Source of the DNA: Sphingobacteriales bacterium 50-39
Lineage (GTDB): Bacteria; Bacteroidota; Bacteroidia; Chitinophagales; Chitinophagaceae
Assembly: GCA_001898505.1 (NCBI GenBank)
Contig: MKTZ01000026.1
Location: 62,001-126,000, forward strand
Direction: 5' to 3'
Length of the DNA: 64,000 bases
Part shown: positions 15,527 to 64,000 of the stretch, in pieces
Numbering within the stretch: the first letter of the stretch is position 1
Layout of the letters: every line of letters begins with the position of its first letter
Program-made: the position numbers and the translations under genes
The notes under the pieces: generated by a model
Told to the model about the DNA's origin: nothing
Database searches by the model: none
Seen by the model: the letters and a program-made list of their open reading frames with translations, nothing else

Positions 15527-15853
15527 GATGCCGGAAATATACCTCTTTTTGGGTTAATCCGTCGCTGTCATCGTATGACGGTAGGCGGATGTGCATGTCC
15601 GGGCGGATGCAGATAATACTTTAAGAATAAGGTATCTGTTTTCTGTGCATCGCTCAGGGCGGGTCATTATACTTACACTGTTCGACTCATGCCAAGGTGG
15701 ACAGGCGTCTATCACCTGAACCCTGCCAAGGCGGAAATGATGTATTTTCCAGTGTTTTATGGGCGGGAAGCCCTTAGGGATGTCAAGATAATGGGAGAAG
15801 GTTTGCAAAGCCGGTGATTTATACTATATTGTATTAACCTAAACAAATATCAT
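15527..15853. other. intergenic region between divergent genes, with plus-strand promoter
   Basis: 327 nt without a convincing gene. A plus-strand promoter is visible: TTTG at 15802-15805, 19-nt spacer, TATATTG at 15825-15831, upstream of the gene at 15854. On the minus strand TATATTTC lies just before the GH92 start as a weaker box. An 84-codon minus frame in the middle has no recognisable feature. Confidence 0.55.
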
Positions 15854-16684: not shown

Positions 16685-16693
16685 TTTTCAAGA

Positions 16694-16714
16694 CGAGGGG
16701 CCTACGGCCCCTCG
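16694..16714. terminator. terminator between convergent genes
   Basis: Perfect 9-bp hairpin CGAGGGGCC-TAC-GGCCCCTCG, followed by CTTATTT on the plus strand. It overlaps the last codons of the minus-strand beta-lactamase gene, whose stop is at 16702-16704. Confidence 0.75.
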
Positions 16715-17610: not shown

Positions 17611-17639
17611 TAGCAGGGAAGTTTACGCTAAGATAATGT

Positions 17640-17681
17640 GCGGGAATTGGTCTTCCCAGATAAAAATAGCCCAATTCCCGC
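17640..17681. repeat. 11-bp inverted repeat upstream of beta-lactamase gene
   Basis: GCGGGAATTGG (17640-17650) and its exact complement CCAATTCCCGC (17671-17681) are separated by 20 nt, in the leader or promoter zone of the minus-strand beta-lactamase gene. It may be an operator for a dimeric regulator or a transcript hairpin. Confidence 0.6.
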
Positions 17682-17693
17682 AAACCGCTAAAG

Positions 17694-17774
17694 TCTGAGG
17701 CCTTCGTCGGAGCTCCGAGCACTCGCTCCTCCTCGGTCGGGGCCCTCGGTCCTGGACGAGCCGCCTTACGGCTC
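17694..17774. repeat. GC-rich hairpin cluster between divergent genes
   Basis: A GC-rich block, unlike its flanks, with palindromes CGGAGCTCCG (17708-17717) and GAGCCG-CCTTA-CGGCTC (17758-17774). It lies between the beta-lactamase gene and miaB. No T-tract follows on the plus strand. It may be a dispersed palindromic element. Confidence 0.4.
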
Positions 17775-17790
17775 TTGTGATGCTGCCAAC

Positions 17791-17823
17791 TTGTCATTAT
17801 AAAATCTGTTTGTCGTATCTTTG
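17791..17823 (+). promoter_or_regulatory. miaB promoter
   Basis: TATCTTTG at 17816-17823 is an exact match to the -7 consensus. CTTGTC with TTG at 17791-17793, 22 nt upstream, is a plausible -33. The miaB ATG follows at 17845. Confidence 0.6.
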
Positions 17824-17844
17824 TCCCCTAAATTTTTTTACCTC

Positions 17845-19260
17845 ATGTCTGAGACCCTTTCCAGCAGGATACATGATGAAGAGCGTCAGGGGAAGGCTTA
17901 TGCCCCCGTTGTAGAGGACCTGCGGGCCCACCGGAAGAAGTTTTATATAGAAAGCTATGGATGTCAGATGAACTTTGCTGATAGCGAGATTGTTGCGTCT
18001 ATCTTGAACGAAAAGGGGTTTGGCGCCACCGGGAATTATCAGGAGGCGGACCTGGTGTTGCTGAATACCTGCAGCATTCGGGAAAAAGCGGAGCAAACGG
18101 TACGCCATCGGCTGCAGATGTTCCGGCAGGTGAAAGAGAATAAGCCCGGCATGCTCATCGGGGTGTTGGGTTGTATGGCAGAGCGGCTGAAGGGTAAGTT
18201 CCTGGAAGAGGAGAAGCTGGTGGACATTGTCGTAGGACCGGACGCCTATCGAACGCTGCCCGGGCTGATCGAAGAGGCGGAATCCGGCCAGCGGGCGGTT
18301 AATGTGCTGCTGAGTAGAGAGGAGACCTATGCGGATATCTCCCCCATACGCCTGGATAGTAATGGGGTGACTGCTTTTGTCAGCATTATGCGGGGGTGCA
18401 ACAACATGTGTTCTTTTTGTGTTGTGCCTTTTACGAGGGGACGTGAACGGAGCCGGGATGCGGCATCCATTGTCAGGGAATGCGAAGATCTTTTTAAGCG
18501 TGGATATAAGGAGGTGACCTTGTTGGGCCAGAATGTGGACAGCTACTATTATGTAGACGAAGGAAAGGATGAGATCGTCACATTTGCCCGGCTGCTCGAG
18601 AAAGTGGCATTGATAGCCCCGTCGCTGCGGGTGCGTTTTTCCACGTCTCATCCAAAAGACATTACCGATGAGGTGCTCTACATTATGGCGAAGTACGAGA
18701 ATATCTGCAAATATATCCACCTGCCCGTGCAAAGTGGTAGTACCCGGATACTGCAACTGATGAACAGGACCTATACCCGTGAATGGTATATCGCAAGAGT
18801 GGGTCGGATCCGGGAGATATTGCCCGATTGCGGCATCAGCTCGGACATCATCGCGGGTTTTTGCACCGAGACGGAAGAAGATCATCAGGAGACCTTGGCG
18901 CTGATGCAGCACGCCAGGTATGATATGAGCTATATGTTCTTTTATAGCGAACGCCCCGGAACACTGGCAGCACGGCGTTATGCGGATGATGTAGCGGAAG
19001 ATGTAAAGAAAAGGAGACTGGATGAGATAGTCAAATTACAGAACAGTCTCTCGCTGGAGAGCAATCGACAGGACATTGGAAAAATATTCACTGTACTCAT
19101 CGAAGGAGATTCAAAGAAGAGCGCAGCCGACTGGCGAGGGCGTAATAGTCAAAATAAGGTGGTGGTGTTCCCGAAAGAAGGAAACCTGCAAAAAGGAGAT
19201 TATGCGCAGGTGAAGGTGGAAGATTGTACGGGAGCAACACTGATCGGAAAAGTAATCTAA
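17845..19260 (+). CDS. miaB: tRNA-2-methylthio-N6-dimethylallyladenosine synthase
   Basis: 471 residues. MiaB is a radical-SAM methylthiotransferase that converts i6A37 to ms2i6A37 in tRNAs reading UNN codons. Visible parts: the N-terminal UPF0004 domain with [14 protein letters not shown] and further Cys at NTCSIRE and VLGCMAER, the radical-SAM motif CNNMCSFC near residue 190, and a C-terminal TRAM domain ending GATLIGKVI. The ATG at 17845 is preferred over an in-frame TTG at 17821, which would overlap the promoter box. The sigma-54 activator follows 4 nt after its stop. Confidence 0.97.
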
Positions 19261-48173: not shown

Positions 48174-48258
48174 GGAGAGATGGCAGAGCGGTCGAATGCG
48201 GCGGTCTTGAAAACCGTTGAGGTGAAAGCCTCCGGGGGTTCGAATCCCTCTCTCTCCG
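48174..48258 (+). tRNA. tRNA-Ser (anticodon TGA)
   Basis: 85 nt. Acceptor stem GGAGAGA/TCTCTCC, anticodon stem GCGGT/ACCGT with loop CTTGAAA (anticodon TGA), a long variable arm (about 48219-48236), T-arm GGGGG-TTCGAAT-CCCTC, discriminator G. CCA is not encoded. Its 3' end is the likely attachment site for the integrase just downstream. Confidence 0.95.
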
Positions 48259-48303
48259 CTCAGTTTTATTGAAATACAGTACTGACAAGGCATTGCGGAG
48301 ACG

Positions 48304-48354
48304 TCGATGTAAAACTCAAATAAAAACTCAAATAGAGTTTTTGCTAAACATCGA
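48304..48354. repeat. tandem and inverted repeats before the integrase gene
   Basis: Two exact tandem copies of AAAACTCAAATA (48311-48322 and 48323-48334) are followed by GAGTTTT (48335-48341), which can pair with AAAACTC. They are enclosed by TCGATGT (48304-48310) and its complement ACATCGA (48348-48354), which ends at the integrase start codon. Direct repeats beside an att site fit arm-type integrase binding sites; the inverted pair may also form a hairpin that masks the start. Confidence 0.65.
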
Positions 48355-49646
48355 TGAATATGCCAGCAGTAACGTACACGGAACCCAGGCTTTGTGACTA
48401 TAAAGGCGACGTCACAAAGCCCTGGTTTGTCTATTTTGACATCACTAACCCGGTCACAAATCAGACCATCTCCAAACAATTTCGTTCCGGCATTAACTAC
48501 TATCATGACACAGACGAGAGGCGAAAGGCAGGCTTGGCCCTTGCCAAAACCTGGCTCAAGAAACTTGAAACCGGCTGGAATCCCTGGGGGCTCACGGATG
48601 ACCCTTCACCTTCATCTGCCGTCACCGCTCTGGAGAAGCTGTCTTTCATTGGCGCGCTGGAATTTGCCCTTAAGAGCTATAAGGCATCCTCGGCCACCAT
48701 CAGAGCTTACAGAACGACGGTGAATGATTTGAAGAGAGCCGCCCGGTCCTTGTCTCTTCATGATGTTACAGCTAAAGACTTTCGGCGGCAGCATGTCAAG
48801 CTCCTGCTGGATTGCTGTCTTACCTCGAAAAATATTCCGAAGGGCAGGCAGGTCTGGACAAATGCTGCTCATAATAAAAATCTCACATACCTACATGCCC
48901 TATGCGAGTATCTCATCGAATGGGAAGTTCTGGAGTATAACCCAGCGCATAAGATAAAGCCCTTGCCGGTGGCTGAGACGGAAAAGTATGTCCCACTGAC
49001 CGAAAAGGAAAAGAAGGACCTGTACGAATTTCTCGTTATTAATCACTACAAATTTTTCGTATACCTGATGGTACTCTATCACACCGGCATTCGCCCCAAA
49101 GAGATCCTTTCCTTAAAGATCCGCGATATCGACCTCACTAAACCAGAGATCAAAATCATTCCCATCCTGGAAGAAGAAAACTCGAAGGTCAAAAAGATAC
49201 GATACATTCCAATAAACAACCACTTACTCCCTTTCCTGCGTGAAATGAACCTGGAGGAATATTCCCAGGACTATTATGTTTTCGGGAGCCCCTTTGTTTC
49301 CGGCAAGGGTAATAGAGGAGGTGGGTCTTCTACTGGTGGCGTGATTGGAGCCGCAAGGCCCGAATACTTTAGCCCCTCCCCGACCCGTATAAAACGTGAT
49401 ACGGTAACGAAGCTATGGAAGAGTTTGATAAAGGAGAAGCTCGGCATCGACAAACACCAGTATGCAATGAAGCGTACTGGTGGGGACGACAAGATCCTTG
49501 CCGGCATGGAGCTGGATGAGCTGCGAGAACTGTATGGTCATGGCAGTAAGTACATGACAGAGAAATATGCCAAAGTTGTGAAGGAAGTGTATAAAAAGAG
49601 GATTATCGAGAATTCGCCTTCCTTCCTTCCAGCTGCCGAAAAATAG
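48354..49646 (+). CDS. phage tyrosine integrase
   Basis: 430 residues. SAM-like core-binding domain at about 95-200 (EFALKSYKASSATIRAYRTTV) and a catalytic domain from about 210. Catalytic Arg247 is in HTGIRPKEILSL. The box II position reads YAMKRT (370-375) where HxLRHT is usual. His396 lies in LYGHGSKYM and the nucleophile Tyr405 follows at the canonical 9-residue spacing. It catalyses integration at tRNA-Ser immediately upstream. A stem-loop, GGCCCTG/CAGGGCC (49647-49672), follows the stop. Confidence 0.94.
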   Translation: MNMPAVTYTEPRLCDYKGDVTKPWFVYFDITNPVTNQTISKQFRSGINYYHDTDERRKAGLALAKTWLKKLETGWNPWGLTDDPSPSSAVTALEKLSFIGALEFALKSYKASSATIRAYRTTVNDLKRAARSLSLHDVTAKDFRRQHVKLLLDCCLTSKNIPKGRQVWTNAAHNKNLTYLHALCEYLIEWEVLEYNPAHKIKPLPVAETEKYVPLTEKEKKDLYEFLVINHYKFFVYLMVLYHTGIRPKEILSLKIRDIDLTKPEIKIIPILEEENSKVKKIRYIPINNHLLPFLREMNLEEYSQDYYVFGSPFVSGKGNRGGGSSTGGVIGAARPEYFSPSPTRIKRDTVTKLWKSLIKEKLGIDKHQYAMKRTGGDDKILAGMELDELRELYGHGSKYMTEKYAKVVKEVYKKRIIENSPSFLPAAEK

Positions 49647-52301: not shown

Positions 52302-53102
52302 TTATATAGCATAATTTGCGGTCATTACCTCAATTTTCTTTCTCCCCGTCGATCCTTTATTTACCGAAATAGGCTGCTCAAAGGATACCGTCATCCACCC
52401 ATTCGCACGAGTGTACTCCTGCAGCTCCTGAGAAGGGTAGCTCGAAAGAAGAAACCTTCCTTTGATCCTGGACAGTGTTTGCAGAAGCCGGACAAAGTCT
52501 TCCTTGGTGTACCCGCCGTAATGGCCACAATCGGAGTTAAAGTAGGGAGGATCGCAATAAAAAAAACTATCCTTGGTGTCCCGTGACTGGATAATATAGA
52601 GTGCATCCGCACATTCCAGCTGGACATTCTGCAGACGGATGGCATACTCTTCCGTGAATGATACCTTCTTGCTATCTACCTTCTTCGTTGTCTGGTTCCT
52701 CTTTTTATCATATCCCCAGGTTCCATCCAGCATACTGGAGAAGCTCTGGGTGGCCAGTATCCAGACGGCCCAGGCCCGCTTGATATCAGAAAATAGATGA
52801 GGATTGTTGTAGATGACAGCGGCATCCTGGTGCATGGAGCGGGAGTGCAGGCTGATATTGATCATCTTCTCCAGGTCGAGGAACTTTGCTTTGACGATCT
52901 GGTAAAAATTCATGATCTCTTTGTTGGTGTCGTTTAAGATCTCTATCTCGGACGGCCCTTTCGCGAAAAATTCGGCGGCGCCGCCGGCAAAAACTGAACC
53001 ATAACAAATGTGGTCGGCTGGGATCCGGGAGACGATCTCTCCAGCCAGGCGCTGTTTGCCGCCGTAGTACGTGAGTGGCGGCCTCATTCGAATAATGGAC
53101 AT
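52302..53102 (-). CDS. D12-class DNA adenine N6-methyltransferase, orphan
   Basis: 266 residues from ATG 53102. SAM-binding motif LTYYGGKQRLAGEI (residues 10-23), FAGGAAEFF (38-46) in the place of FxGxGxxF, catalytic DPPY (184-187) and a Dam-type C-terminus with GRKKIEV. It methylates adenine in a short site that cannot be read from the sequence. No restriction endonuclease gene is adjacent, so it is an orphan phage methylase, possibly protecting phage DNA or changing host regulation. Confidence 0.92.
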   Translation of the reverse strand: MSIIRMRPPLTYYGGKQRLAGEIVSRIPADHICYGSVFAGGAAEFFAKGPSEIEILNDTNKEIMNFYQIVKAKFLDLEKMINISLHSRSMHQDAAVIYNNPHLFSDIKRAWAVWILATQSFSSMLDGTWGYDKKRNQTTKKVDSKKVSFTEEYAIRLQNVQLECADALYIIQSRDTKDSFFYCDPPYFNSDCGHYGGYTKEDFVRLLQTLSRIKGRFLLSSYPSQELQEYTRANGWMTVSFEQPISVNKGSTGRKKIEVMTANYAI

Positions 53103-53147
53103 GGTCTTGGCTATTTTATTTGAAAGATATATTGCTTGTTCCCTCAA

Positions 53148-53179
53148 ATAAAAGCCCCGGGTGTAGACACACCCCGGGC
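53148..53179 (-). terminator. terminator upstream of the methylase gene
   Basis: Strong GC-rich stem (CCCGGGTGT...ACACCCCGGG, one mismatch) around loop AGAC, followed on the minus strand by CTTTTATTT. It ends the late operon before the separately transcribed methylase gene. Confidence 0.8.
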
Positions 53180-53226
53180 CCAAAACTAACTGCTTATGAG
53201 AAAACTCCGCGACTGTGCGGAAAAAG

Positions 53227-53541
53227 TTATTCTTCGGGATACTTCCAGTGGGCCTGGCCATCGGATTTGTTTGACTCGTGGGGCACACTGGATTTGCAGA
53301 CGGGTGCCGCTCCGTCAGGGAAAACGGTAAGGTTTACCATCGGAATTACCCGACGGTCGCTCCCACCCCACTGCCGGGTGATCACAGCTGCAATCGGCCC
53401 TTCAGCATTATCATTGGTGGTTACATCCGCATCCGGGCTTTCGACCTTTTTAGCAAAGGGGTTGGCAGGATCCGGTGTCGATGGTGTTGGTTTTGCCGGA
53501 TAATAAAGTACCGGCTCGCCTACTTTCGGTTGTCTTTCCAT
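53227..53541 (-). CDS. small phage protein, tail-region type
   Basis: 104 residues. MERQPKVGEPVLYYPAKP start, a Pro/Asp/Asn-rich middle, then GPIAAVITRQWGG, MVNLTVFPDGAAP and a C-terminal AHWKYPEE. The pattern VGxxVLYY...AAVITxxW...VNLxVFPDG...WxxPE is, as I recall, common in small phage proteins of unknown role. Last gene of the late operon. Confidence 0.65.
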   Translation of the reverse strand: MERQPKVGEPVLYYPAKPTPSTPDPANPFAKKVESPDADVTTNDNAEGPIAAVITRQWGGSDRRVIPMVNLTVFPDGAAPVCKSSVPHESNKSDGQAHWKYPEE

Positions 53542-54120: not shown

Positions 54121-54699
54121 CTATGCGGTTAAAGAAAATTGTCCAAATGCCCTGCGGATCCAGCCGGCCATGAACTCTTCCTGGCTCGCCCTGTTCTCCG
54201 CTATTCCTATATACCGAGCGCCCTGCAGGGCGACGATACATTTGAGCACGTCCTTTTGATTTGCCTTAGCCAGGGCATTCAGCGTCCCAGCACCGACAAC
54301 ACCATCGACAACAATATCAGGATAGAATTTCCCCTGCTTGTTGAGCACGTTGAGAGAGCGTTGAAGAAACAGCGCAGCGATCTTGGAGCTGCAGTTAACA
54401 GCAAGGTCGAACAGCTCGTTCGCTATCGGCTGGTCCTGCACCTGGTTGAGCCTGAGAACATCCCAGAAGTTGACCTGGTAGAAGCCCCTCATTGCAGCCT
54501 GGAGGTCCTTGTTGGCCTGAAGTGCAGCCCCAAAGCCGGGCTTGCCTTTCAATTCGTCAATGATCTTCCAGCCACTCCATTGTGGCCAGTTGTTGCGAGA
54601 AACGCCGCCATATGTCTCTCCTCCAGTGTCGTTGGGATTATTAGCATATCCTCGTTCTACGCGGATGGTGGCTTTATAAGCTATTTCAAAATCTGCCAT
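54121..54699 (-). CDS. GH108-type endolysin (lysozyme)
   Basis: 192 residues. A GH108 catalytic segment with VERGYANNPNDTGGETYGGVSRNNW (Glu at about residue 14 as the presumed acid) and a C-terminal peptidoglycan-binding-3-like domain: FYQVNFWDVLRLNQ, VDGVVGAGTLNALA, then GWIRRAF. It cleaves the glycan backbone. There is no signal peptide, so holin-dependent release is expected. It overlaps the upstream membrane protein by 14 nt. Confidence 0.9.
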   Translation of the reverse strand: MADFEIAYKATIRVERGYANNPNDTGGETYGGVSRNNWPQWSGWKIIDELKGKPGFGAALQANKDLQAAMRGFYQVNFWDVLRLNQVQDQPIANELFDLAVNCSSKIAALFLQRSLNVLNKQGKFYPDIVVDGVVGAGTLNALAKANQKDVLKCIVALQGARYIGIAENRASQEEFMAGWIRRAFGQFSLTA

Positions 54700-55120
54700 A
54701 AAACTGATTTAATAGGTTAGAAGCAATAAGAATAAGGAAGAAGATGATCGTCTTCCTGATGGCCCCCTGCTGGCCGAAGAGCTTTACGAGCTGCCGGTCT
54801 ACCCATGCCGTCCCACCCAGGTAGTAGATGGACAAGGAAGACCAATGGTTGAAGGGAATATCGAAGAACACCAGCCGGATCAATCCGCAGGCAAGACAAG
54901 TTTTCCACCAGGCAGCAGGCTGCAGGTTAAATATTGGCTGCATCTTCAGCAAGGGCAACAAAAAGAGCACAGCCAGGATCAGACCATCGCGGTGCCAGCG
55001 TCTTACGCGCACGGCAGACAGCGCATTGTCATTCTTATCCTTCAGCTGGTAGCTATCAGCGTCCTTGCCTGCCAGGACAAGCGTGCAGATGATATAATAT
55101 GCCTGGAAGACGTAGATCAT
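54686..55120 (-). CDS. phage membrane protein next to endolysin
   Basis: 144 residues with about three to four hydrophobic segments (MIYVFQAYYIICTLVLAG, LILAVLFLLPLL, TIIFFLILIASNLL). No family recognised. Its place between endolysin and lipoprotein genes suggests a lysis role, but also other envelope functions. Overlaps both neighbours by 4 to 14 nt. Confidence 0.6.
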   Translation of the reverse strand: MIYVFQAYYIICTLVLAGKDADSYQLKDKNDNALSAVRVRRWHRDGLILAVLFLLPLLKMQPIFNLQPAAWWKTCLACGLIRLVFFDIPFNHWSSLSIYYLGGTAWVDRQLVKLFGQQGAIRKTIIFFLILIASNLLNQFYGRF

Positions 55121-55653
55121 AACGGTACGACATTTTTCCAGAGAACAGCCGGAGTTTGATCTGCTTTCATGACACTGTCAAAGGTGATCTGTTTGACCTC
55201 CAGGTGGGTCCGCCATCGTTTACTATCCAGGACACAATAGGCGCCAACCCAAATGACCGCCCATACAATAAATACCAATAAAGGCATCCACCATTGAGCG
55301 GGTCGCTTCATCGTTACCGCTTTACCCGCACCTATGCCCGCTGCGGGTCCCAGGAACGCCAGTAGCCAGAACCATTTGTATGTGTGGTCCTCCTCAGCCC
55401 ATTCCTTTGCCTGCCACCAGGTAGCCTCGAAACGCAGCCAATAATCCTGGATAAGGGGATTGCCATCAACAGTGCGGTCAATGTGGGTGTATCCAGCACG
55501 CTCCAATTGTAGCAAGCTATCCGTGACCGGCCTAAATTTGCCGCGTAGCTCGGGATACCTCCCATCCGGCTCTGTGTTATAGTGCTGCCCACAGGCGGTG
55601 AAAAGAATCGCGACGATGAGCATCAAGCCCCATCTGGACTTGAAAATTTTCAT
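55117..55653 (-). CDS. phage lipoprotein with internal membrane helices
   Basis: 178 residues. Lipoprotein signal with LFTAC lipobox (Cys21), then a periplasmic segment DGRYPELRGKFRPVTDSLLQ, two hydrophobic helices (WFWLLAFLGPAAGIGAG and WWMPLLVFIVWAVIWVGAY) and a polar C-terminus. Function unknown. Starts 2 nt after the spanin candidate's stop. Confidence 0.6.
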   Translation of the reverse strand: MKIFKSRWGLMLIVAILFTACGQHYNTEPDGRYPELRGKFRPVTDSLLQLERAGYTHIDRTVDGNPLIQDYWLRFEATWWQAKEWAEEDHTYKWFWLLAFLGPAAGIGAGKAVTMKRPAQWWMPLLVFIVWAVIWVGAYCVLDSKRWRTHLEVKQITFDSVMKADQTPAVLWKNVVPL

Positions 55654-55655
55654 AA

Positions 55656-56348
55656 TCAGATATTTAAAAGTTTTTTAATAATGTTTTTTATGATCACCGG
55701 TTTCTTTAACCAGGTGCAAATAATCCCGATGATGGCGAGAATAAGCAGGAGCCAAAGACTCATCTGGACCAAACCAGGCATTCCCTCATGGGCGACCTCC
55801 TTGCTCTTCGACTCCTCCGTCGTGTGTAGATCCGTTTGAGCGGCGTCGTGGCCTGCTGTGCTATCCACCTTCTCGTTGAATGTTGTGCCGCTGTTTATTC
55901 TCCCAATATCAATCTCGACTTCCGCAGGGATTTGACCTGGTAGGCTGGTAGCGGAGATTGCTTTCTGTACGGCACGAGCGATGTCGGTAATTGCTGATGC
56001 CGGCGCTGTCGTTGTTTTTGTGCCCGGACTTGCTTTCCCAGCGATATTTTGCTCTCGGGCAATGCTACCTGCTGACGATGTCTGTTCACTGTCGCCACTG
56101 GAAACCGGCCATTGGGTATACAGGCTCCGGATATAAGCCGCCATTGCCGAATCGAGCGGCTTGTAGCTGATCTTTACATGCACGTCCTGCACCTCGATAT
56201 TGCTGCTATGATTCACCTCCCTGGTGACATGATCCGTGTCCCGGCTGACAGTTGCCGTACTATCTGCCGTCCTCTGCTGACTTTGTTTGAGCTTATGCGA
56301 GGCGCCGCAGCTGGCCAGTAAGAAAATGAGGGGGATGAGTAGTTTCAT
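55656..56348 (-). CDS. candidate unimolecular spanin
   Basis: 230 residues. The N-terminus is a lipoprotein signal with LLASC (Cys14), so the protein would be anchored in the outer membrane. The C-terminus has one transmembrane helix (MSLWLLLILAIIGIICTWL, about 195-213) with a basic cytoplasmic tail. The part between is a periplasmic Ser/Thr-rich span of about 180 residues. This two-membrane layout is that of u-spanins such as T1 gp11, which disrupt the outer membrane in the last step of lysis. Assignment is by topology and neighbours, not sequence. Confidence 0.65.
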   Translation of the reverse strand: MKLLIPLIFLLASCGASHKLKQSQQRTADSTATVSRDTDHVTREVNHSSNIEVQDVHVKISYKPLDSAMAAYIRSLYTQWPVSSGDSEQTSSAGSIAREQNIAGKASPGTKTTTAPASAITDIARAVQKAISATSLPGQIPAEVEIDIGRINSGTTFNEKVDSTAGHDAAQTDLHTTEESKSKEVAHEGMPGLVQMSLWLLLILAIIGIICTWLKKPVIIKNIIKKLLNI

Positions 56349-56358
56349 GATGAATGGG

Positions 56359-56694
56359 TTATGATTGAGGATCTTTGTTGCCGGCCATCCTGGTCCACCA
56401 CTTCAAAACTGGTTGTAGCAGCAATTCATAGAAGCTGGTAGCGAAGAAGTAGCTTACGAAGGACTGCACCCACGCAATAGGCGCTGTCTTATCCTGTAAG
56501 TGCAGGAGAAGCACATAGATCGTGCTTGCAATGGATGAGAGCGCCAAGGTCTTGATCGCTGAATCATGTGATTTACTTGTCCTATTCCAGGGGGTATATA
56601 GATACCTCTTTTGGAAAAAACCCGCACCCAGTACCAACAGGACAATAACTAGGTCGATGTTGAATTTGTCTTTGAAGAAGTCGAGGAGTTCCAT
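56359..56694 (-). CDS. holin candidate
   Basis: 111 residues with three hydrophobic helices (about 13-27, 47-65, 76-95) and a polar C-terminus. Size and topology fit a class I holin. It is located with the endolysin and spanin candidates. No sequence family recognised. Confidence 0.6.
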   Translation of the reverse strand: MELLDFFKDKFNIDLVIVLLVLGAGFFQKRYLYTPWNRTSKSHDSAIKTLALSSIASTIYVLLLHLQDKTAPIAWVQSFVSYFFATSFYELLLQPVLKWWTRMAGNKDPQS

Positions 56695-56701
56695 ATAATG
56701 A

Positions 56702-56992
56702 CTATTTTTTAAATGCGTAATGAAGAATTTCCAGGAATATGGCCATTACCACTGTGCCGCCTAGTCCCCATATCCATTTGATGTACAGCTCTGCCTTGAT
56801 GTTCTTACGCTCGATTCGATCGATCCTTTCGTGTAGCGTCTCTGCTTCTTTCTCGCAGTCTATTACACGCTGGATGAGGCCGCCATCCTTGGCGAGACTA
56901 TTGCCAATAAGCGCATAGTGAACATCGCATACCTTGTCGGTTAAGTCGCGGACTTGCTCTTTGAGCTGCTGGATATCAGTGCTTTCAGGCAT
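56702..56992 (-). CDS. coiled-coil protein with C-terminal membrane helix
   Basis: 96 residues from ATG 56992. A heptad-rich coiled coil (TDIQQLKEQVRDLTDKVCDV to LHERIDRIERK) followed by a transmembrane helix WIWGLGGTVVMAIFLEI. The layout resembles XhlA-type holin accessory proteins. The longer frame to 57103 adds a basic stretch overlapping the next gene and is unlikely. Confidence 0.6.
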   Translation of the reverse strand: MPESTDIQQLKEQVRDLTDKVCDVHYALIGNSLAKDGGLIQRVIDCEKEAETLHERIDRIERKNIKAELYIKWIWGLGGTVVMAIFLEILHYAFKK

Positions 56993-57002
56993 GGGTAATT
57001 GC

Positions 57003-57314
57003 TTATTTTTTGGGTGTTGCTTTGGAGGTATCGGCCTTGTTTTTCGGAAGGTCGAGGGGCCATTGCTGTCGCTTCGTAGCTTCGATCTTTGCCTGGAGCT
57101 CATCGCATATATCCATGATAGCTTTGGCCTTTTGATGGGCCAGGTTCGAATTGTCGGTCAAATACTTCGCATTGTCGAGCTGCGCCTGCAGCTGCGCAAC
57201 CTCCAGCTCGGACAGGTTCAGGATAAGGCGTTTCTCCGCGGAGTCCCTTTTTGCTTGAGCATAGGAGGCCATGGTGGCCAGCAGGGCGATGATGAGCAGT
57301 TTTGTTTTTTTCAT
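57003..57314 (-). CDS. small exported coiled-coil protein
   Basis: 103 residues from ATG 57314. A Sec signal peptide (MKKTKLLIIALLATMASYAQA) and a helical, coiled-coil-prone mature part (EKRLILNLSELEVAQLQAQL), then a Lys/Pro-rich tail. No family recognised. It is one of three proteins in this late operon that carry Sec signals. Confidence 0.6.
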   Translation of the reverse strand: MKKTKLLIIALLATMASYAQAKRDSAEKRLILNLSELEVAQLQAQLDNAKYLTDNSNLAHQKAKAIMDICDELQAKIEATKRQQWPLDLPKNKADTSKATPKK

Positions 57315-57339
57315 TTTGTAGTGTGTATTGGTTAAAAAA

Positions 57340-60123
57340 TCAATTGTCGGTGATGATGAGGACATTGGTCCCCTTGCGTATGTGCACCTCGATAACGGTC
57401 GGTTGCGGCTGGGACACTGTGACCGTGACCGTATCGTTGGCTGTTTGGCTGTTGCTATCCGTCGCCGTCAGCTTGAAGGTATAGGTACCGGCGATCAGGC
57501 CGGCCACTACCGTGGACAAGGAGCTGGGTGTCCGGATCGTGGCGGTGTTCGGGCCGCTCACCTGGCTCCAGCTGGTGGACGTGATCGTGGCGCCGCTATT
57601 ACCGGAAGCCGTCCCGGTAAGCGTGGCTGAGTCTTTAGGGAGGGTCGTTGACTGGTTAATGCCGGCATAAACGGTTGGCGGTACGCCTGCCTGGTTGACA
57701 ATGACCTGCACTTGGGAAGTATCCTGGCCGGTATTGTTATCCGTAGCCAGGACCTGGAAGACATATGTGCCATTAACCATCCCCGTGACAGACGTGCTCT
57801 TAGAGGAAGGCGAGACGATTGTCGGATTGTTCGGCCCGCTGACCTTAGTCCAGGCATAGGATATCCACCAATAACCGACCGTATCTACACCGTTTGGAGC
57901 TGGGCGTATCTGTGATATTACAAGGGCAGGATTGCCCGTAGCTGTCAATGTTGTTGAGGTAGATGTTATCGTCTTATTCGCCCCAGCCGAGAGAGTGGGA
58001 GCCGTAAAGTTATAGGTAGTAAATCGGGCTGTCAGAGGTGTTACCCTCTTTGGGACCAAAACATCAAGCGTATTCGGATGATACTGATCTGTTTCGCTGG
58101 TACTTCCATACCCGTTACCCAGCGCCAAGGCTTTGTTGCGCCCCCATGAATAGATACTGTCGTTGAGATCCTGCGCATACTTGTACAGGCCGAACCAGGT
58201 GGTAGACCAAATATGCTTAAACAGCGTACCTGGCTTTATCTGCACGGGTATACCAGACGGATTCTCGTAATTGATAAGCGACCAGCCATATCCCGGATAG
58301 CCAGGATAATAGTATTTATTAACGAACTCCTGCCCGTTGCCTACTTCCCCAAAAGAGTTAAAGCCGCAACCCCACATTCTGCCAAGACTATCTATATAGT
58401 GAATGGTATTCCAATCCACCGAGATCTCCTTTATGGGAACTGTGATGTTCCAAAGGGCCTTAATTGAAGTTGGCTGTGAATATGCCGGACCTCCGCCATA
58501 CATGCTGGTGGTACCACCCCAAACATATGGGTAACCCATTGTCTGTGAACCGAAGACATCGGGAATAATGCAGCCTTGTAGGTTGAGGGCGGAGATAAAA
58601 ATATCAATGGCTGGCCTGGGTGTAGAGTATAAGGTTGGGGTCTTACTCCCACCGTTCGACCATTTGTATACCTTACCGTCCGTCGTCAGAGCCAGGATGC
58701 CAGGACCGCCGCATACCACCTTCTTAAATTTCAATCCAGCCGGGGAAAGTTGGGTGAACTTCATGACCTGGCCCACACTGGTCACAGTTGAGCCGCCAGG
58801 ATAAAACAGGCTATAGACGTCTTTCCCGCCATACCAGATTGATGAATCCGATCGGATTGTTAAAATGGCATTGCTGTACCCGTCGACGTAAATGTTACCG
58901 CTGAATGCCCCTCCAGTTGTGTCTGTGTCGACCCTGTAGGTGTTGGTGGTGATGTCGAAATTAAAAGCCTTTGTTTGCCAGACATAACCCAGATCATCAA
59001 GTGCATTGAAGATGTTAAAGCCACCAAATACAAAGCACCATTTCCGCCCAGACGGCGGAGCGTACTGCACCGGATAAGCGCTGGAATTATTATAACCCCA
59101 TATCGTGCTGTCAGACAAATAATACCAAGTCCTGTATTCTGATACCACGACCTTTTTTACAACCCGGGGAGAAGGCGTTGCGACACCTACTAAACTGGTA
59201 TCCCCCTGCCGTAGCATCCATTGAAAGATGCTGGATTGGGCGAAATACGTACCCATCGTATTTTTCCCCACCTGCGAGGGCGCATTGTTTGGCCCTAACG
59301 TGCCTACGCAGGTCCAGTTGGTTGCGTTCGGATCATACATACTATTCCAGCAGCAGTGTGCTCCCCCGCCCAGATTCTCATAACTAAAATAGGCGCAGCC
59401 TGGCAGGGTGTCATTCATTGCTACTGAGTAGTGCCAGCCGTCGCGGAAATTGTCAGACCCGCTGCCTTCCAGGTAGAAGTACTTGCCGCCATATTTCTTT
59501 GCCCAAACCTTGTACGCAACAGTGTCTCTATCCCACCCGTTATATGGAGAAGGCAATGCCCCTGGTGTACCCTCCAGAGCAGCAAAGGAAGTTACCAGCT
59601 TCATACCCGTTTCAGCCCCTGCCGTCATTTCAAATTTGATAAGCTCCCCCGTCGTCATGGCCCCCTGAGATAGACCCGTAAAATGTACCGCGTTACGTTT
59701 GATGTGATAGGTATTTAACAGGTAGGTAAGCAACGTGTAATACTGAGGGGCTGTGGGAGAGACATTGTTGATATAGGCCGCCGTAATAAGAATGGGATAG
59801 TGTTTACCATTGCCCAATTGCAACCCGCCGTCCCACCCGTGGTTTAACCAGTAATGGGGCCCATATGCCACTAATTTATTGGTATCCGATGTACCTTGCT
59901 CCCCTTGTCCAGGCATCATAATAATGGCAGGTCTGGAAGCAGTGTCCGGATCATTGGTTACAAACATCTTAGCTGGTCGAGAGATTCTAACATTCCAGTG
60001 ATCGGCAGAAAATGGCCCGGTTGTGAAATTAATAACAGTGTCGTAGGTGACGAAGTTGTGGGTCTCTGATTGTCCGACTGCTAAGAGCGGCAGCAGGGCG
60101 AGAATGGTAAATAACTTTCTCAT
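57340..60123 (-). CDS. exported alpha/beta-hydrolase, RCC1-like and Ig/PKD fusion protein
   Basis: 927 residues. Sec signal peptide (MRKLFTILALLPLLAVGQS). Residues about 40-310 resemble an alpha/beta hydrolase of the esterase or depolymerase type: nucleophile Ser152 in FTGLSQGAMT, GGGAHCCW later. The middle (about 340-700) has RCC1-like propeller units (IWGYNNSSAYP, MWGCGFNSFGEVGNG, IYSWGRNKALALGNG). The last 200 residues hold two Ig/PKD-like domains with matching SGPN...SS...TSV/TVV...GTY(V/T)F segments. It begins in the stop of the upstream gene (TAATG). Presumably acts at the cell surface on a polysaccharide or ester. Confidence 0.72.
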   Translation of the reverse strand: MRKLFTILALLPLLAVGQSETHNFVTYDTVINFTTGPFSADHWNVRISRPAKMFVTNDPDTASRPAIIMMPGQGEQGTSDTNKLVAYGPHYWLNHGWDGGLQLGNGKHYPILITAAYINNVSPTAPQYYTLLTYLLNTYHIKRNAVHFTGLSQGAMTTGELIKFEMTAGAETGMKLVTSFAALEGTPGALPSPYNGWDRDTVAYKVWAKKYGGKYFYLEGSGSDNFRDGWHYSVAMNDTLPGCAYFSYENLGGGAHCCWNSMYDPNATNWTCVGTLGPNNAPSQVGKNTMGTYFAQSSIFQWMLRQGDTSLVGVATPSPRVVKKVVVSEYRTWYYLSDSTIWGYNNSSAYPVQYAPPSGRKWCFVFGGFNIFNALDDLGYVWQTKAFNFDITTNTYRVDTDTTGGAFSGNIYVDGYSNAILTIRSDSSIWYGGKDVYSLFYPGGSTVTSVGQVMKFTQLSPAGLKFKKVVCGGPGILALTTDGKVYKWSNGGSKTPTLYSTPRPAIDIFISALNLQGCIIPDVFGSQTMGYPYVWGGTTSMYGGGPAYSQPTSIKALWNITVPIKEISVDWNTIHYIDSLGRMWGCGFNSFGEVGNGQEFVNKYYYPGYPGYGWSLINYENPSGIPVQIKPGTLFKHIWSTTWFGLYKYAQDLNDSIYSWGRNKALALGNGYGSTSETDQYHPNTLDVLVPKRVTPLTARFTTYNFTAPTLSAGANKTITSTSTTLTATGNPALVISQIRPAPNGVDTVGYWWISYAWTKVSGPNNPTIVSPSSKSTSVTGMVNGTYVFQVLATDNNTGQDTSQVQVIVNQAGVPPTVYAGINQSTTLPKDSATLTGTASGNSGATITSTSWSQVSGPNTATIRTPSSLSTVVAGLIAGTYTFKLTATDSNSQTANDTVTVTVSQPQPTVIEVHIRKGTNVLIITDN

Positions 60124-61124
60124 TATTCTTTTATGAAGATTGCGTAAGAAATGAGGGCGCAGTCCGTTCCGCCAGTTGTGTTGGTTTTACCAACATAGAT
60201 TACAATAGTGCCATTGGAATCCGACACCACACCAGGGAAACTCAGCTCGGTAGATGTGTTGGGCGATCCGTTGTAGTTTGCAAGGGTCTGAACGGTTTGC
60301 AAAGTGGTACCCTTAACGTTATAGTTCCCTTTGGCAGCGACGTTATACTGGGTCGTGCCTGAAAGCTTGACTGTATAGCTGGTATTGGGAAGCAGCCCGT
60401 TCAACGTTATCTGTGGATTGGTTGTCTGATAGGTGGCTCCCTGGACAAACCCTTCTCGCATGACACCTGTGTAGCCCGTCGGTATGGTGGCGTTCGTTAT
60501 GCCATTGGATGGACCGATACACGCGCCGGCGAAGAACGTCCAGTTCGACGTCGGACCTGTGGTGGCTGAAATGGTCGTGCCTGAAAGCGATGCAGTTATG
60601 GTATGCTTGCCGGGGTCTCCCCTCAGTACAAGGAAAGGCGATACGTCAAAGGCGACAGTTGTATCCATCTGAATGCGAACCGTATCCGGTGTGGTGAGAA
60701 CGTCCCCGTCCAGAGTGACTGTCTTTGTTGTCGCACCTGTGCTCGTAAGGTTGGCAACTTCATTATGGTGCCCCGCAGTAGCGGATGACTTTAAACGCCA
60801 ATAGACGTTTGTCGGAGAGACGGTACCGCCGGACTGTGTCAAGGTTACGCTCGAAGTATATCCGCTGGCCAAGGAAAGGGATACCTCATAGTTCGTCGTA
60901 GCATTACAAACAATGTCCGCCGTGAGGTTGGTACCTGAAATGCTCGATGATTGGCCGGTGCTTGCAGTACCCAGCGTTGTGGAAAATCCTGACAGTGTGG
61001 ATGGAGTGCGGGTAATCGTTGGTCCTGTCCCACCGGTGCTTCCAATATTCACTCCGAATACATAGGTCTGGGCCTGCAGGAAGCAGGGCAAAAGGAGGGC
61101 TATAATTAAAAGATGTCTTTTCAT
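60123..61124 (-). CDS. exported beta-rich, fibre-associated protein
   Basis: 333 residues. Sec signal (LLIIALLLPCFLQAQ), then a Thr/Ser/Gly-rich Ig-like mature part with GFSTTLGTASTGQSSSISG and a C-terminal domain of about 130 residues (FFAGACIGPSNGI, LPNTSYTVKLSGTTQYN, SNGTIVIYVG). No family recognised. It lies 5 nt after the SGNH fibre gene and shares 1 nt with the next gene, so it is part of the fibre module. Confidence 0.65.
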   Translation of the reverse strand: MKRHLLIIALLLPCFLQAQTYVFGVNIGSTGGTGPTITRTPSTLSGFSTTLGTASTGQSSSISGTNLTADIVCNATTNYEVSLSLASGYTSSVTLTQSGGTVSPTNVYWRLKSSATAGHHNEVANLTSTGATTKTVTLDGDVLTTPDTVRIQMDTTVAFDVSPFLVLRGDPGKHTITASLSGTTISATTGPTSNWTFFAGACIGPSNGITNATIPTGYTGVMREGFVQGATYQTTNPQITLNGLLPNTSYTVKLSGTTQYNVAAKGNYNVKGTTLQTVQTLANYNGSPNTSTELSFPGVVSDSNGTIVIYVGKTNTTGGTDCALISYAIFIKE

Positions 61125-61129
61125 GAACC

Positions 61130-64000
61130 TTATTTTATTGTGTAGGTAAAAGAGTAGTTAAGAGTGGTCGATGATGTTGTGCTGGGCGCGGTAAAGTGTA
61201 GCCGTGCCATGTCTGTCGTGTTATTTGCAGTTATTCCGCCTCCCGTAAAAGGCCCATTATTTTCGATATTCGAGCCACCTACGCAGTCTAGTGAGTTTGT
61301 CAGGTTGGATGCGACCGGCAGACTGATTTCCAGATAACATTCGCCAATTGATGTAGCCAAAGGGTTGATTGTTCCCCATACAGTTACTTCATTGCCTATC
61401 CTAAGCCAATGGGATAAATTGCCGCTGGCAGTACAGTTCGTTAGATTGGAAATAGTAGGAGTATAGGTACTCGAGGTAACGACGGTCGAAAAATTGCCAT
61501 CTCCTCCATACACAAGCGTGGCATCTCCAGGCAGCTTTTTCATGTACCCGTGTGCGGACGTGCTTGCATTGCCGGTGGTAACATCCGAAAAGGCCACATC
61601 GGCGTCTGTGATGGCCGCCCAGGCAGGCGCTGCAGATACGGAACCGGTACCCGCCTGATTGAGGAACTTCTTCGTCGTGGTCGTATTGCCGGCCAGTTTT
61701 GACAATGCCGTCGTCCCGGATGCATATAGGAGGTCTCCCAGGGTATAGGACGAAATGCCTGTCCCACCGTCGCCTACGGCCACATCTGTGCTGCCTGGCG
61801 CATAATAATCCGTACCGGCTGTCGCCGCGCTGTAGTTCATACCATTGCCTTTCACCATTCCATTCAATACAGCGGTGAGCCCGGTGCCGCCTTTGGAGAT
61901 GGGAATCGCAGTTGCATTCCATGATCCTGTAGCAATTGTTCCGACAGTGACAATATTGGCTGAACCGGGCCAGGTGGATAGAGCTGTATTTTCGACGTTG
62001 CCAAGGTTCAGATCACTCTTAGTTATGGCTCTCCAGGTTGGAGCAGTGGCTGCAGATCCGGAGCCTATGGAGGACAGGACCTGGAGGGCCGTTGATGTGT
62101 TTCCAGCCAGCCGGGCGGTCACATTGCTGGCATTCCGGATAATAATATCACCGATGGTTGTCATAGGATCGGCAAAGCCCGATGAAGGGGGCGCCCATGC
62201 GTAGTCGTAGTTCGAGCTCGTGTTCTTCGTCAGGACCTGGCCTGCCGTGCCCCCGGTAGGCACTCCGCCCTTGCTTGTGCTTATTGCCGTCGCATTCCAG
62301 GTCCCAGTTGTAATAGTGCCTACTGCGGTAATGTCGGTACCGACCAGTTTAGAAGCGGCGATGCTACCGGCCAGCATCCCGTTGGTTACTTTTCCAGACC
62401 CTATGGCCCCGACTCCAGCTGTGCTGATGGTGAAGTCTCCTGTGATAGGATGATTCACCCACGTCGTGTCGGAAGCTCTATAAAAGAGTATGTCTCCATC
62501 AGTTGGAGACGTCAGACTCATTTTTGTAGCCTTATACCATGTGCGGACACCATTCTGGGATGCATAGACTCTGTAATCGACCAGCGAAGAACTATCACCG
62601 ATCAGGTCGACTACACCGGCGACCTGCCTTACGCTATTGGGGAATGTATAACTTCCACCGCCTCCGCCCCATGTCGGCGTATACTTCACAAACTTGCTCC
62701 CATTCCAAATGGGGATATCGTTGACAGCTATGCCTGTCAGGTCGATATTGACACTGGGCTTATTTACCCAGGCAGCACCCAATTTTATAAGCAAATCTCC
62801 ATCGGCTGGAGACGTAATGTTGGCGATCAGAGCCGGCCTGTTAACAAAGATTCCGGCGTCCCGGACCAGGATGTCCCCATCTTCTGGGGCAGAGAGGTTG
62901 GCCACCAGCCCCGGTGTGTTCCCCCATTTACCAGTACCATTTCGGGTGAGTATATCATTTTCCTGTGGCGTTGAAATGGCCACGTCGGTCAGCGCCGCCA
63001 GCTGTGAGGCGCCGCCGCTATTCGGGAAATCGATCACAGAGGCCCAAGCTTTGGCCAGCTGCGCATAGCCCACGTTGCCGGGATGCAGCCCGTCGCCCGT
63101 ACCAGAAGTGGTAATATTGAGAAAATTTTCTGTTGGAACGGTGGCCACAGGAAAGCCCAGGGTGCGGAAATAGTTCACCACCGTATCGATGTTGGCATTG
63201 GCCGTATCGGTGACAGCATCGCTGGAATTGGTATCACCATAGGCCACATATCCAGCCGGGGTACATTTGGTAATATGGGCAACGAGGGCTGACGAGCAGT
63301 TATCCACAGTCATGAACTTAGCGACATAATCAAAGTCCGTCTCCGCGTTGTCCAGTAGCGTGATGGTAACAGCGTGCGTCCCCGCCCCCAGCCCCGTGAA
63401 TATAAAGACTATAGGCTGACGGTAGTCATACGTGCCGATGTTGCTCTGATGGTCAGAACAAAGGTCCCGTCCTGAATACGTTCCCTTATTAATCCCGTCG
63501 ACAGTCACCGAGAACCTGCCGAGGTTATGGTATCCCTGCCAGGCGTACGTTCCGATGATCATATTGTCATCTGTCCATAGGAATGTCAGGGTATTACCCG
63601 CTGTAGAGCTCTTCATGGGGTTTCCCAAGCTCTTTGCCACGCTTTTGGATGTCAGGTTCGATGCCGTGAAATTGGACCAGGATCCGTTCTTCGTAAACTT
63701 CGCATTACTGATCGCCCAGATGCTGTCGACAAACTGGTTGGCGATGATAACGCGCAGGGCCTCACGGACGGCTGGTTGTTTGGTACCCAGGGGATCCTGG
63801 CGCAGGTTGTTGGTACCCATCATTATCGACAAAGACGTACTCACCTTGGTGGCTGCTGCGTTGCTGAATTGCCGGGAAATGACATCGCGGACGGAGGAAT
63901 TACTGACAGCAGTGTTGACGTAACTCACCCCGTACTGTGCATATAATAATGCCGGGTAACCATGTACCGTATCTGTCGCACCGGCAGACGCCGTGATACT
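61130..64000 (-). CDS. tail fibre with N-terminal SGNH hydrolase, 5' end beyond window
   Basis: At least 956 residues; the frame stays open to the right edge, and the apparent start at 63928 is an internal GTG. The first visible codons read SITASAGATDTVHGYPALLY, which fits GDSIT with the window ending just after GD, so the catalytic Ser would be the first visible residue. Block III is MMGTNNLRQD and block V GDGLHPGNVGYAQLAKAW. A run of about four 25-residue repeats follows (SAPEDGDILVRDAG, SPADGDLLIKLGAAW). Fibre repeats include TITTGTWNATAIS and TIATGSWNATAIP, ending in a C-terminal beta domain. Probably hydrolyses O-acetyl groups of a surface polysaccharide during adsorption. Confidence 0.8.
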   Translation of the reverse strand, partial: SITASAGATDTVHGYPALLYAQYGVSYVNTAVSNSSVRDVISRQFSNAAATKVSTSLSIMMGTNNLRQDPLGTKQPAVREALRVIIANQFVDSIWAISNAKFTKNGSWSNFTASNLTSKSVAKSLGNPMKSSTAGNTLTFLWTDDNMIIGTYAWQGYHNLGRFSVTVDGINKGTYSGRDLCSDHQSNIGTYDYRQPIVFIFTGLGAGTHAVTITLLDNAETDFDYVAKFMTVDNCSSALVAHITKCTPAGYVAYGDTNSSDAVTDTANANIDTVVNYFRTLGFPVATVPTENFLNITTSGTGDGLHPGNVGYAQLAKAWASVIDFPNSGGASQLAALTDVAISTPQENDILTRNGTGKWGNTPGLVANLSAPEDGDILVRDAGIFVNRPALIANITSPADGDLLIKLGAAWVNKPSVNIDLTGIAVNDIPIWNGSKFVKYTPTWGGGGGSYTFPNSVRQVAGVVDLIGDSSSLVDYRVYASQNGVRTWYKATKMSLTSPTDGDILFYRASDTTWVNHPITGDFTISTAGVGAIGSGKVTNGMLAGSIAASKLVGTDITAVGTITTGTWNATAISTSKGGVPTGGTAGQVLTKNTSSNYDYAWAPPSSGFADPMTTIGDIIIRNASNVTARLAGNTSTALQVLSSIGSGSAATAPTWRAITKSDLNLGNVENTALSTWPGSANIVTVGTIATGSWNATAIPISKGGTGLTAVLNGMVKGNGMNYSAATAGTDYYAPGSTDVAVGDGGTGISSYTLGDLLYASGTTALSKLAGNTTTTKKFLNQAGTGSVSAAPAWAAITDADVAFSDVTTGNASTSAHGYMKKLPGDATLVYGGDGNFSTVVTSSTYTPTISNLTNCTASGNLSHWLRIGNEVTVWGTINPLATSIGECYLEISLPVASNLTNSLDCVGGSNIENNGPFTGGGITANNTTDMARLHFTAPSTTSSTTLNYSFTYTIK

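Follow-up and report, generated by a model that had tools for sequence, protein, structure and literature searches.

Signal-bearing genes at the prophage locus

In the window (the whole 64,000-nt stretch of DNA analysed), four consecutive minus-strand genes formed a tightly packed block, with intergenic gaps of 5, −1 and 25 bases; the gap preceding each of the second and third genes was 5 bases or fewer. The first gene encodes a protein resembling an SGNH tail fibre or depolymerase (full length, 1219 aa; Pfam Lipase_GDSL_2, 2e-8) that is cut by the window edge, its 3′ part lying at 61130 to 64000 and its true start at window coordinate 64789, beyond the window; SGNH is a phage-type receptor-binding/depolymerase domain. 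It is followed by a predicted exported, Ig-like/adhesin-like protein of 333 aa (60123 to 61124), with relatives at the same place in loci L002 and L005, and by a predicted exported protein of 927 aa (57340 to 60123), which combines an alpha/beta-hydrolase-like part (GxSxG and a conserved HCCWN) with RCC1 repeats and PKD domains and has no T9SS sorting domain. The last gene (57003 to 57314) encodes a small, predicted exported protein of 103 aa, borders the lysis genes and is possibly a lysis-side factor; L005, L099, L101 and L108 also have a small signal-bearing protein close to this position.

The block is part of a 56.8-kb prophage. An att repeat corresponding to the 3′ end of a tRNA-Ser (48233 to 48259, plus strand) has an exact copy at the other prophage end (C26:166984-167010), and the tyrosine integrase is encoded at 48354 to 49646 on the plus strand (PF00589, 2e-15). 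The phage has a tail-tip protein of 521 aa and a collar-type fibre of 451 aa that bears no signal. The block lies downstream of this fibre and upstream of the lysis genes, and such a position between tail-tip/adaptor and lysis genes is that of tail fibres and tailspikes.

All four block proteins had a predicted Sec/SPI signal peptide (n-, h- and c-region, SPI site) with Gln at +1, as in the Q-rule of Bacteroidetes; predictions were made with our own scorer, not SignalP. The SGNH fibre starts with MKPIQKILLLLSCFIAGRAAA, followed by QAP. The signal peptide of the 333-aa protein is MKRHLLIIALLLPCFLQA (18 aa, 61071 to 61124, minus strand, LQA/QTY) and that of the 927-aa protein is MRKLFTILALLPLLAVG (17 aa, 60073 to 60123, minus strand, AVG/QSE). 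For the 103-aa protein, the longest ORF starts at 57365 and was scored as transmembrane (TM) from there, not as a signal; the signal, MKKTKLLIIALLATMASYA (19 aa, 57258 to 57314, minus strand, SYA/QAK), starts at the ATG at 57314. We confirmed the signal peptides of the window block as genuine: those that the earlier note had read on the genes starting at 57314, 60123 and 61124 are real and each has Gln at +1, its grouping of these genes with the SGNH fibre as a unit is right, and the observation is larger than first noted. With the tail-tip gene as the divide, an SPI signal with +1 Gln was found among minus-strand prophage genes of at least 90 aa in 0 of 32 on the head, tape-measure and early side and in 5 of 14 on the fibre/lysis side.

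The lysis region (54121 to 57103, minus strand) comprises a coiled-coil/TM protein (56702-57103), a TM protein (56359-56694), two lipoprotein-like proteins (55656-56348 and 55117-55653), a second TM protein (54686-55120) and a GH108 endolysin (54121-54699). The endolysin alone had a strong family match, the others being assigned by position and by TM segments or a lipobox. The gene at 55117, the fifth SPI scorer on the fibre/lysis side, resembles a lysis-region lipoprotein.

Signal peptides in related phage loci

The tail-tip protein, itself signal-free, was used as the query for a census of 36 IMG/VR loci (4 of them near-copies of others), in which tail-strand genes of at least 90 aa were scored. 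SPI signals with +1 Gln were absent from the 305 genes upstream of the tail-tip gene and present in 29 of 152 same-strand genes downstream (Fisher test, 2e-15). When residue +1 was hidden from the scorer, Gln occupied this position in 50 of the 69 signal peptides (72%) of blocks whose limits were drawn by hand, and positions +2 to +8 in 3–13%; the species average for host exported proteins is 71% at +1 (available text of PMC5837995). The Q-blind test and the upstream control ruled out chance hydrophobic N-termini. On the minus strand of the census loci, outside the tail-strand counts, 1 of 61 ORFs scored as SPI with +1 Gln (L113:4035). One scorer error was seen downstream of lysis genes, where L005:19370 was scored as SPI with +1 Gln yet looks cytoplasmic. 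None of nine fibre-region proteins in five non-Bacteroidota phages had a signal peptide.

Tailed phages are thought to complete their particles in the cytoplasm, and classical tail assembly there would suit an explanation in which the N-terminal segments have no role in export: the proteins would fold in the cytoplasm and enter the virion unprocessed or trimmed by a phage protease. The presence of such proteins in virions by MS/MS (see below) would suit it too, as would a precedent from Porphyromonas phages, whose major capsid proteins have predicted signal peptides that the authors of that work took to be cut by the prohead protease (available text of PMC10367356); a signal on a virion protein therefore does not necessarily mean export. 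We nevertheless consider this explanation improbable, since the +1 Gln frequency is close to that of host exported proteins and far from that of neighbouring positions, the signals are restricted to the fibre side of the tail-tip gene, and the non-Bacteroidota fibre regions were signal-free.

Similar blocks were found in siphophages, T4-like phages (L002, L103), Mu/P2-like phages (L005, L104) and other phages, so the recurrence that the earlier note had proposed to look for does exist. A single tip domain was common to six distinct signal-bearing fibres across tail types, namely the C-terminal tip of the SGNH fibre and those of five others. Bacteroidota start sites lack a strong Shine-Dalgarno signal and are therefore hard to prove, which leaves some room for translation starting downstream of the signal. 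Such an artefact is nonetheless scarcely credible, and the signal-free downstream starts raised in the earlier note found no support: a Met within 30 residues past the cleavage site occurred in 15 of 51 proteins, against 32% expected by chance, and the signal with its cleavage site was found again in divergent phages.

Of 15 phages whose tail-tip protein is short, 13 had a block; of 11 in which it is long, 1 did, with cut-offs set after the table was seen. On this count it is as if exported fibres stand in for fused ones. Block proteins were modular fibres in architecture, combining repeats and tips of phage type, and their enzymes and domains (SGNH, pectate lyase, polysaccharide lyase, metalloprotease and lectin-like) fit receptor/depolymerase proteins. 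PHROG tail-fibre or minor-tail matches were obtained for some block relatives and none for the window's own fibre, and the L002 fibre had a short stretch similar to Klebsiella phage depolymerases. Tailspikes and depolymerases of tailed phages, such as a Klebsiella phage KLPN1 protein and the Cellulophaga phi17:2 spike, share catalytic domains, fibre repeats and exchangeable parts with the block, but the N-termini of those checked are signal-free, whereas the large block members here have a Sec/SPI signal. No match to the 1219-, 333- or 927-aa proteins was obtained by tblastn against 50,697 phage records, no relative of the 1219- or 103-aa protein by exact peptide patterns in IMG/VR, and no solved-structure relative for the esterase profile or the 1219-aa fibre. 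AlphaFold models were poor (pLDDT of 40.2 for the 333-aa protein and 40.9 for the esterase domain).

Virion proteins and host homologues

Like the window, the Cellulophaga phages phi10:1, phi19:1, phi18:3, phi19:3, phi46:3, phi13:2, Nekkels and Ingeline have three to five grouped fibre/pectate-lyase genes, and their signal peptides mostly follow the Q-rule. In phi10:1, phi19:1 and phi18:3, 11 of the 12 signal-bearing fibre-block proteins are annotated in GenBank as virion proteins from MS/MS, the exception being phi10:1 gp095; 0 of 18 other Cellulophaga structural proteins scored had a signal. These annotations make doubtful the premise of the earlier note that tail proteins of a phage assembled in the cytoplasm should not be exported, and the annotated virion presence, in lab-isolated phages, of signal-bearing fibre sets with the same layout suggests, by analogy, that the fibres are finished outside the cytoplasm. 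The Cellulophaga fibres had no significant sequence similarity to the window proteins, profile comparison gave no significant link, and no shared tip domain was found between block and Cellulophaga fibres; the bridge between them is one of architecture, not homology.

The exported and processed proteins might instead act free in the periplasm or lysate, co-purifying with particles only; stripping of receptors or capsule, blocking of re-adsorption or superinfection, and help in release are the roles proposed. The block is rich in enzymes and adjoins the lysis genes, the window phage has a separate signal-free fibre, and block esterases were mixed among host secreted ones on the tree. In addition, phi10:1 gp093 and phi19:3 gp088 are 97% identical although their phages belong to the Assiduviridae and Pachyviridae, respectively, and core genes of the latter include a sheath (available text of PMC8776804). 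Against free action speak the structural annotation from MS/MS that 11 of 12 such proteins carry, the modular fibre build, and the lack of a block in most phages whose tail-tip protein is long and fused. We regard free action as rather unlikely but worth serious consideration.

Secreted esterase/RCC1/PKD proteins encoded by hosts of the same genus have homologous domains (at most 59% identity over the RCC1-PKD part) and Sec signals too, but end in a T9SS C-terminal sorting domain (TIGR04183; 6 of 6 scanned, serving as positive control), which was found in 0 of 8 phage block proteins, including the three large ones of the window. Of 17 further block proteins, one had a weak match (E 0.0017), and by eye none of the 17 resembled a sorting domain in its last 75 residues. 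Export of the window proteins should therefore halt in the periplasm. T9SS surface display was rejected, and the surface-displayed cargo considered in the earlier note is disfavoured. Lysogenic-conversion proteins shown on the lysogen surface would account for the signal peptides in a temperate prophage and for the T9SS domains on host homologues, but the window proteins lack that domain, the genes occupy a late-operon site between tail and lysis genes, and similar blocks in isolates are annotated as structural; we judge this very unlikely.

The earlier interpretation is partly supported. It stands for the signals, the unit with the SGNH fibre and the recurrence; its non-export premise is doubtful and the surface cargo disfavoured. 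Of its options, a particle assembled at or beyond the membrane survives best.

Precedents and a possible assembly route

A PMC search of titles and abstract openings, covering few subscription papers, retrieved none on signal peptides of Bacteroidota-phage tail fibres. The coat proteins of filamentous phages are virion proteins that pass Sec, and their assembly takes place in the inner membrane as the particle is extruded; the window element differs in being a tailed phage that carries lysis genes. Two signal peptides are reported for Bacteroides phage phiBrb01 and one for phiBrb02, and the authors considered cleavage and host-membrane interaction of these proteins possible (available text of PMC5723332). 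Phage DGR target proteins are without signal peptides in the accessible part of PMC6199706, and the term "signal peptide" is absent from the main text of the paper on Nekkels and Ingeline (PMC8776804). Porphyromonas phages have five Q-rule genes of unknown function that, like those of the window, use host Sec/SPI with +1 Gln; the available text of PMC10367356 gives no tie to fibres or virions.

We put at about even chances that export takes the fibres and depolymerases to the periplasm, where they mature before joining particles at lysis, cleavage and attachment being putative. The block would supply a temperate siphophage with its variable fibres, which bind receptors and cleave glycans or esters. 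Tail, tail tip and collar-type fibre would be made in the cytoplasm. The 333-aa adhesin and the 927-aa esterase would, together with the SGNH fibre, pass through Sec and be cleaved by signal peptidase I. Capped by pyroglutamate, the folded fibres would be held in the periplasm because the T9SS tail that leads to the surface is missing. When the adjoining lysis genes open the cell, the fibres would meet released particles and either dock on them or work alongside on the capsule. We infer the processing, the periplasmic storage, the docking at lysis and the likeness of the window phage to the isolates. The exported set could be accessory, since the window phage also has its signal-free fibre.

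More tentatively, and with somewhat less confidence, some Bacteroidota tailed phages may assemble in two compartments, heads and tails in the cytoplasm and fibres or depolymerases in the periplasm after Sec, cleavage and pyroglutamate formation, the halves joining at lysis. Fibre completion outside the cytoplasm is an unexpected route for tailed phages. If the fibres do use Sec, several Bacteroidota phage groups break the rule of cytoplasmic completion, SPI or glutaminyl cyclase would be host factors for infectivity, and fibre engineering and host-range prediction must allow for export and processing.

Within the two-compartment reading, fibres of some phage groups are perhaps O-glycosylated. 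The motif D(S/T)(A/I/L/M/T/V), reported for Tannerella (available text of PMC6120980), was enriched 2.43-fold in window and metagenomic block proteins (non-signal controls, 0.99) and depleted in the Cellulophaga block (0.37-fold; controls, 0.88). As a reason for export, O-glycosylation is a lead that lends no support to the main reading. In host exported proteins without block homology, the motif was 1.38-fold enriched, compared with 1.12 in non-signal proteins.

Signal peptides in the prophage fibre block

Signal-bearing fibre modules are a real and recurrent feature, and no prior description of them in Bacteroidota phages was found in the literature searched, mostly titles and abstracts. In the window they belong to a prophage of about 56.8 kb bounded by a 27-bp repeat of the tRNA-Ser 3′ end (att; window 48233-48259, within 48174-48259, and C26:166984-167010 on the same contig, C26, of which the window covers 62001-126000), with a tyrosine integrase at 48354-49646 adjoining the tRNA gene. 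Beyond the window, PHROG matches mark a terminase, a portal and a major head protein; a 1381-aa gene with the size and place of a tape measure lies there too, as does the gene of the 521-aa tail tip, a protein that matches Prophage_tail (PF06605) and whose named relatives are from Bacteroidota or their phages except for one record labelled Shigella phage. From these relatives, and from the T9SS domains in homologous secreted proteins of its genus, the host is taken to be a member of the Bacteroidota. The tail tip is followed by a 451-aa collar-type fibre without a signal, a 1219-aa SGNH fibre, a 333-aa adhesin-like protein, a 927-aa esterase/RCC1/PKD protein and a 103-aa protein, and then by the lysis genes, including a GH108 endolysin. 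The run of signal-bearing genes between tail tip and lysis genes is called the block.

Predicted Sec/signal peptidase I signals with Gln as the first residue after the cleavage site (+1 Gln, the Q-rule) were found in 0/32 minus-strand prophage genes on the head/early side and in 5/14 on the fibre/lysis side; Gln occupied +1 in all four block proteins (1219, 333, 927 and 103 aa). The earlier note had listed three proteins with signal peptides, all of which were borne out, but its list was one short, since the 1219-aa fibre, truncated by the window edge, likewise bears a signal peptide. Two IMG/VR contigs (L107 and L109) matched the prophage with 100% DNA identity over 7919 and 6113 bp, the same phage caught in metagenomes. 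A D12 adenine methyltransferase gene was observed near the lysis end (52302-53288), and similar-looking genes come after the block in loci L104 and L129.

Instead of SignalP, signals were scored with our own program, which makes some errors and whose second version is blind to residue +1. The test set for this version comprised 73 block genes from 27 loci, each 190 aa or longer, with duplicate N-termini removed and block limits drawn by hand; a signal peptide was found in 69. Of the four negatives, L127:16084 was positive with the first version, and the other three are possibly not genes. Gln stood at +1 in 50 of the 69 signal peptides and in 3-13% at +2 to +8; a host species mean of 71% at +1 is given in PMC5837995, and PMC10653852 describes exported Porphyromonas proteins as stabilised by pyroglutamate. 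Downstream starts without a signal, raised in the earlier note against export, are unlikely, because Met occurred within 30 residues of the cleavage site in 15/51 proteins (32% expected). No signal was detected in nine fibre-region proteins from five non-Bacteroidota phages, although five of these nine proteins have a domain that a signal-bearing fibre matches. As a caution, signal-like N-termini of Porphyromonas phage capsid proteins have been attributed to the prohead protease (PMC10367356).

Recurrence downstream of the tail tip

With the esterase as query in IMG/VR, the order large fibre, adhesin and esterase, with an optional small gene after the adhesin, the esterase or both, and all signal-bearing, was recovered in L002, L005, L099, L101 and L104 (L003 and L004 are seemingly the same phage as L002, and L007 the same as L005; L100 is much like L101). 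The L103 block has a different adhesin-like gene plus one signal-less ORF in between, and that of L006 comprises fibre and esterase only. Signal peptides thus recur in other phages; the earlier note had proposed such a check for homologous prophages. Judging by neighbouring genes and in part by known motifs, the block-bearing loci include phages with a T4-like sheath gene and phages with Mu/P2-like baseplate genes. By sequence, fibre modules in several groups of Bacteroidota phages are predicted Sec/signal peptidase I substrates.

A census independent of the signal criterion used a tail-tip alignment as query and returned 36 loci, 4 of them near-copies of others. On the tail strand, signals with +1 Gln were found in 0/305 genes upstream vs. 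29/152 genes downstream of the tail-tip gene. In 20 of the 36 loci the sequence runs on for 3.5 kb or more past the tail-tip gene; of these, a gene with such a signal was present in 12/13 with a tail tip of up to 650 aa and in 1/7 with a longer one; in an enlarged set (the window and further loci under the same rule, L072 dropped as the same phage as L132), the values were 13/15 and 1/11, with cut-offs set after viewing the table and counts that ignore kinship. The exceptions were L133 and G109 (L079), with a short tip and no block, and L138, with a long tip and a block. L138 has two signal-bearing genes at 15109-18539 despite a 1247-aa tail-tip protein. No downstream block was found in five phages sharing the tail tip (Elizabethkingia TCUEAP3, Porphyromonas 005b, Bacteroides Versailles and p00, Riemerella RAP44), two of which have less than 3.5 kb downstream. 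In p00 (L077), a 128-aa gene (4611-4997) by the lysin, away from fibre blocks, has a Q-rule-like signal (TFA|QTG).

Virion annotation and probable destination of export

Cellulophaga isolates show the same block layout, and in three of them such signal-bearing proteins are annotated as virion proteins. In phi10:1, gp091-gp094 carry Q-rule signals and the text "structural protein, annotation based on experimental MS/MS proteomics analysis", which is absent from gp095, a signal-bearing pectate lyase. All of phi19:1 gp101-gp104 and phi18:3 gp085-gp087 are so annotated; the signal of phi19:1 gp104 lacks +1 Gln. Thus 11/12 signal-bearing block proteins have this status, as taken from the annotation text of the records, not from the original proteomics data, and no signal was seen in the remaining structural proteins scored in phi10:1 and phi19:1 (0/18). 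The main rival explanation is that these are free periplasmic or lysate enzymes co-purifying with particles. The most economical mechanism predicted is that the fibres would be exported via Sec, would mature in the periplasm and would join particles upon lysis.

The Cellulophaga fibres resemble those of the window in position, signals, enzyme content and modularity, with no detectable homology between them. The gp093 protein of phi10:1 (Assiduviridae) is 97% identical over its full length to a phi19:3 (Pachyviridae) protein, and its catalytic pectate-lyase part occurs in phi46:3 (L162, 3356-8124) behind a different signal-bearing N-terminus; this is domain swapping between two putatively exported anchors, a modularity expected of fibres. 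Residues 119-773 of gp093 are 49% identical to the signal-less spike of phi17:2. Signal-bearing fibre blocks were absent from phi14:2 and phi38:1.

A type A sorting domain of T9SS, which carries host proteins to the surface, was found in all six scanned host homologues of the esterase and/or RCC1-PKD parts (5/6 beating the curated cut-off; a seventh homologue, which did not translate, was left out) and in 0/8 phage block proteins scanned (4 esterases; 3 window proteins). Export of the block proteins would therefore probably end in the periplasm, not at the surface. In a 20-row esterase tree (L104 was missed by the motif), phage and host rows were mixed, forcing at least four changes; genes therefore move between phage and chromosome. 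Several more esterase/RCC1/PKD copies were observed on host contigs C6, C7 and C15; some of them lie at the end of a contig, and one is interrupted by stops.

Domains of the block proteins

The esterase has GxSxG and HCCWN motifs in 4/4 aligned sequences, the latter invariant. Pfam matches in 23 large signal-bearing fibres were SGNH/GDSL (three) and pectate lyase or PKD (single members); in 17 other block proteins, including 4 esterases, they were PKD (six), RCC1 (two) and single polysaccharide lyase, metalloprotease and laminin-G-like domains. PHROG matches included tail fibre and minor tail protein, and a short stretch of the L002 fibre (residues 283-369) is 36% identical to Klebsiella phage depolymerases. 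A tip domain is common to six distinct signal-bearing fibres of sipho-, T4-like and Mu-like phages; in a set of 1732 ORFs, the only signal-less ones with this domain were truncated copies of the window fibre. When signal-bearing block proteins were set against controls, the motif D(S/T)(AILVMT) for O-glycosylation showed 2.43-fold enrichment in window and metagenomic block proteins and depletion (0.37-fold) in the Cellulophaga block. The 333-aa protein and its L002, L099 and L101 relatives end similarly (IFIKE, IKITKH, IIIRKH and IIIRKH), possibly a conserved C-terminal patch.
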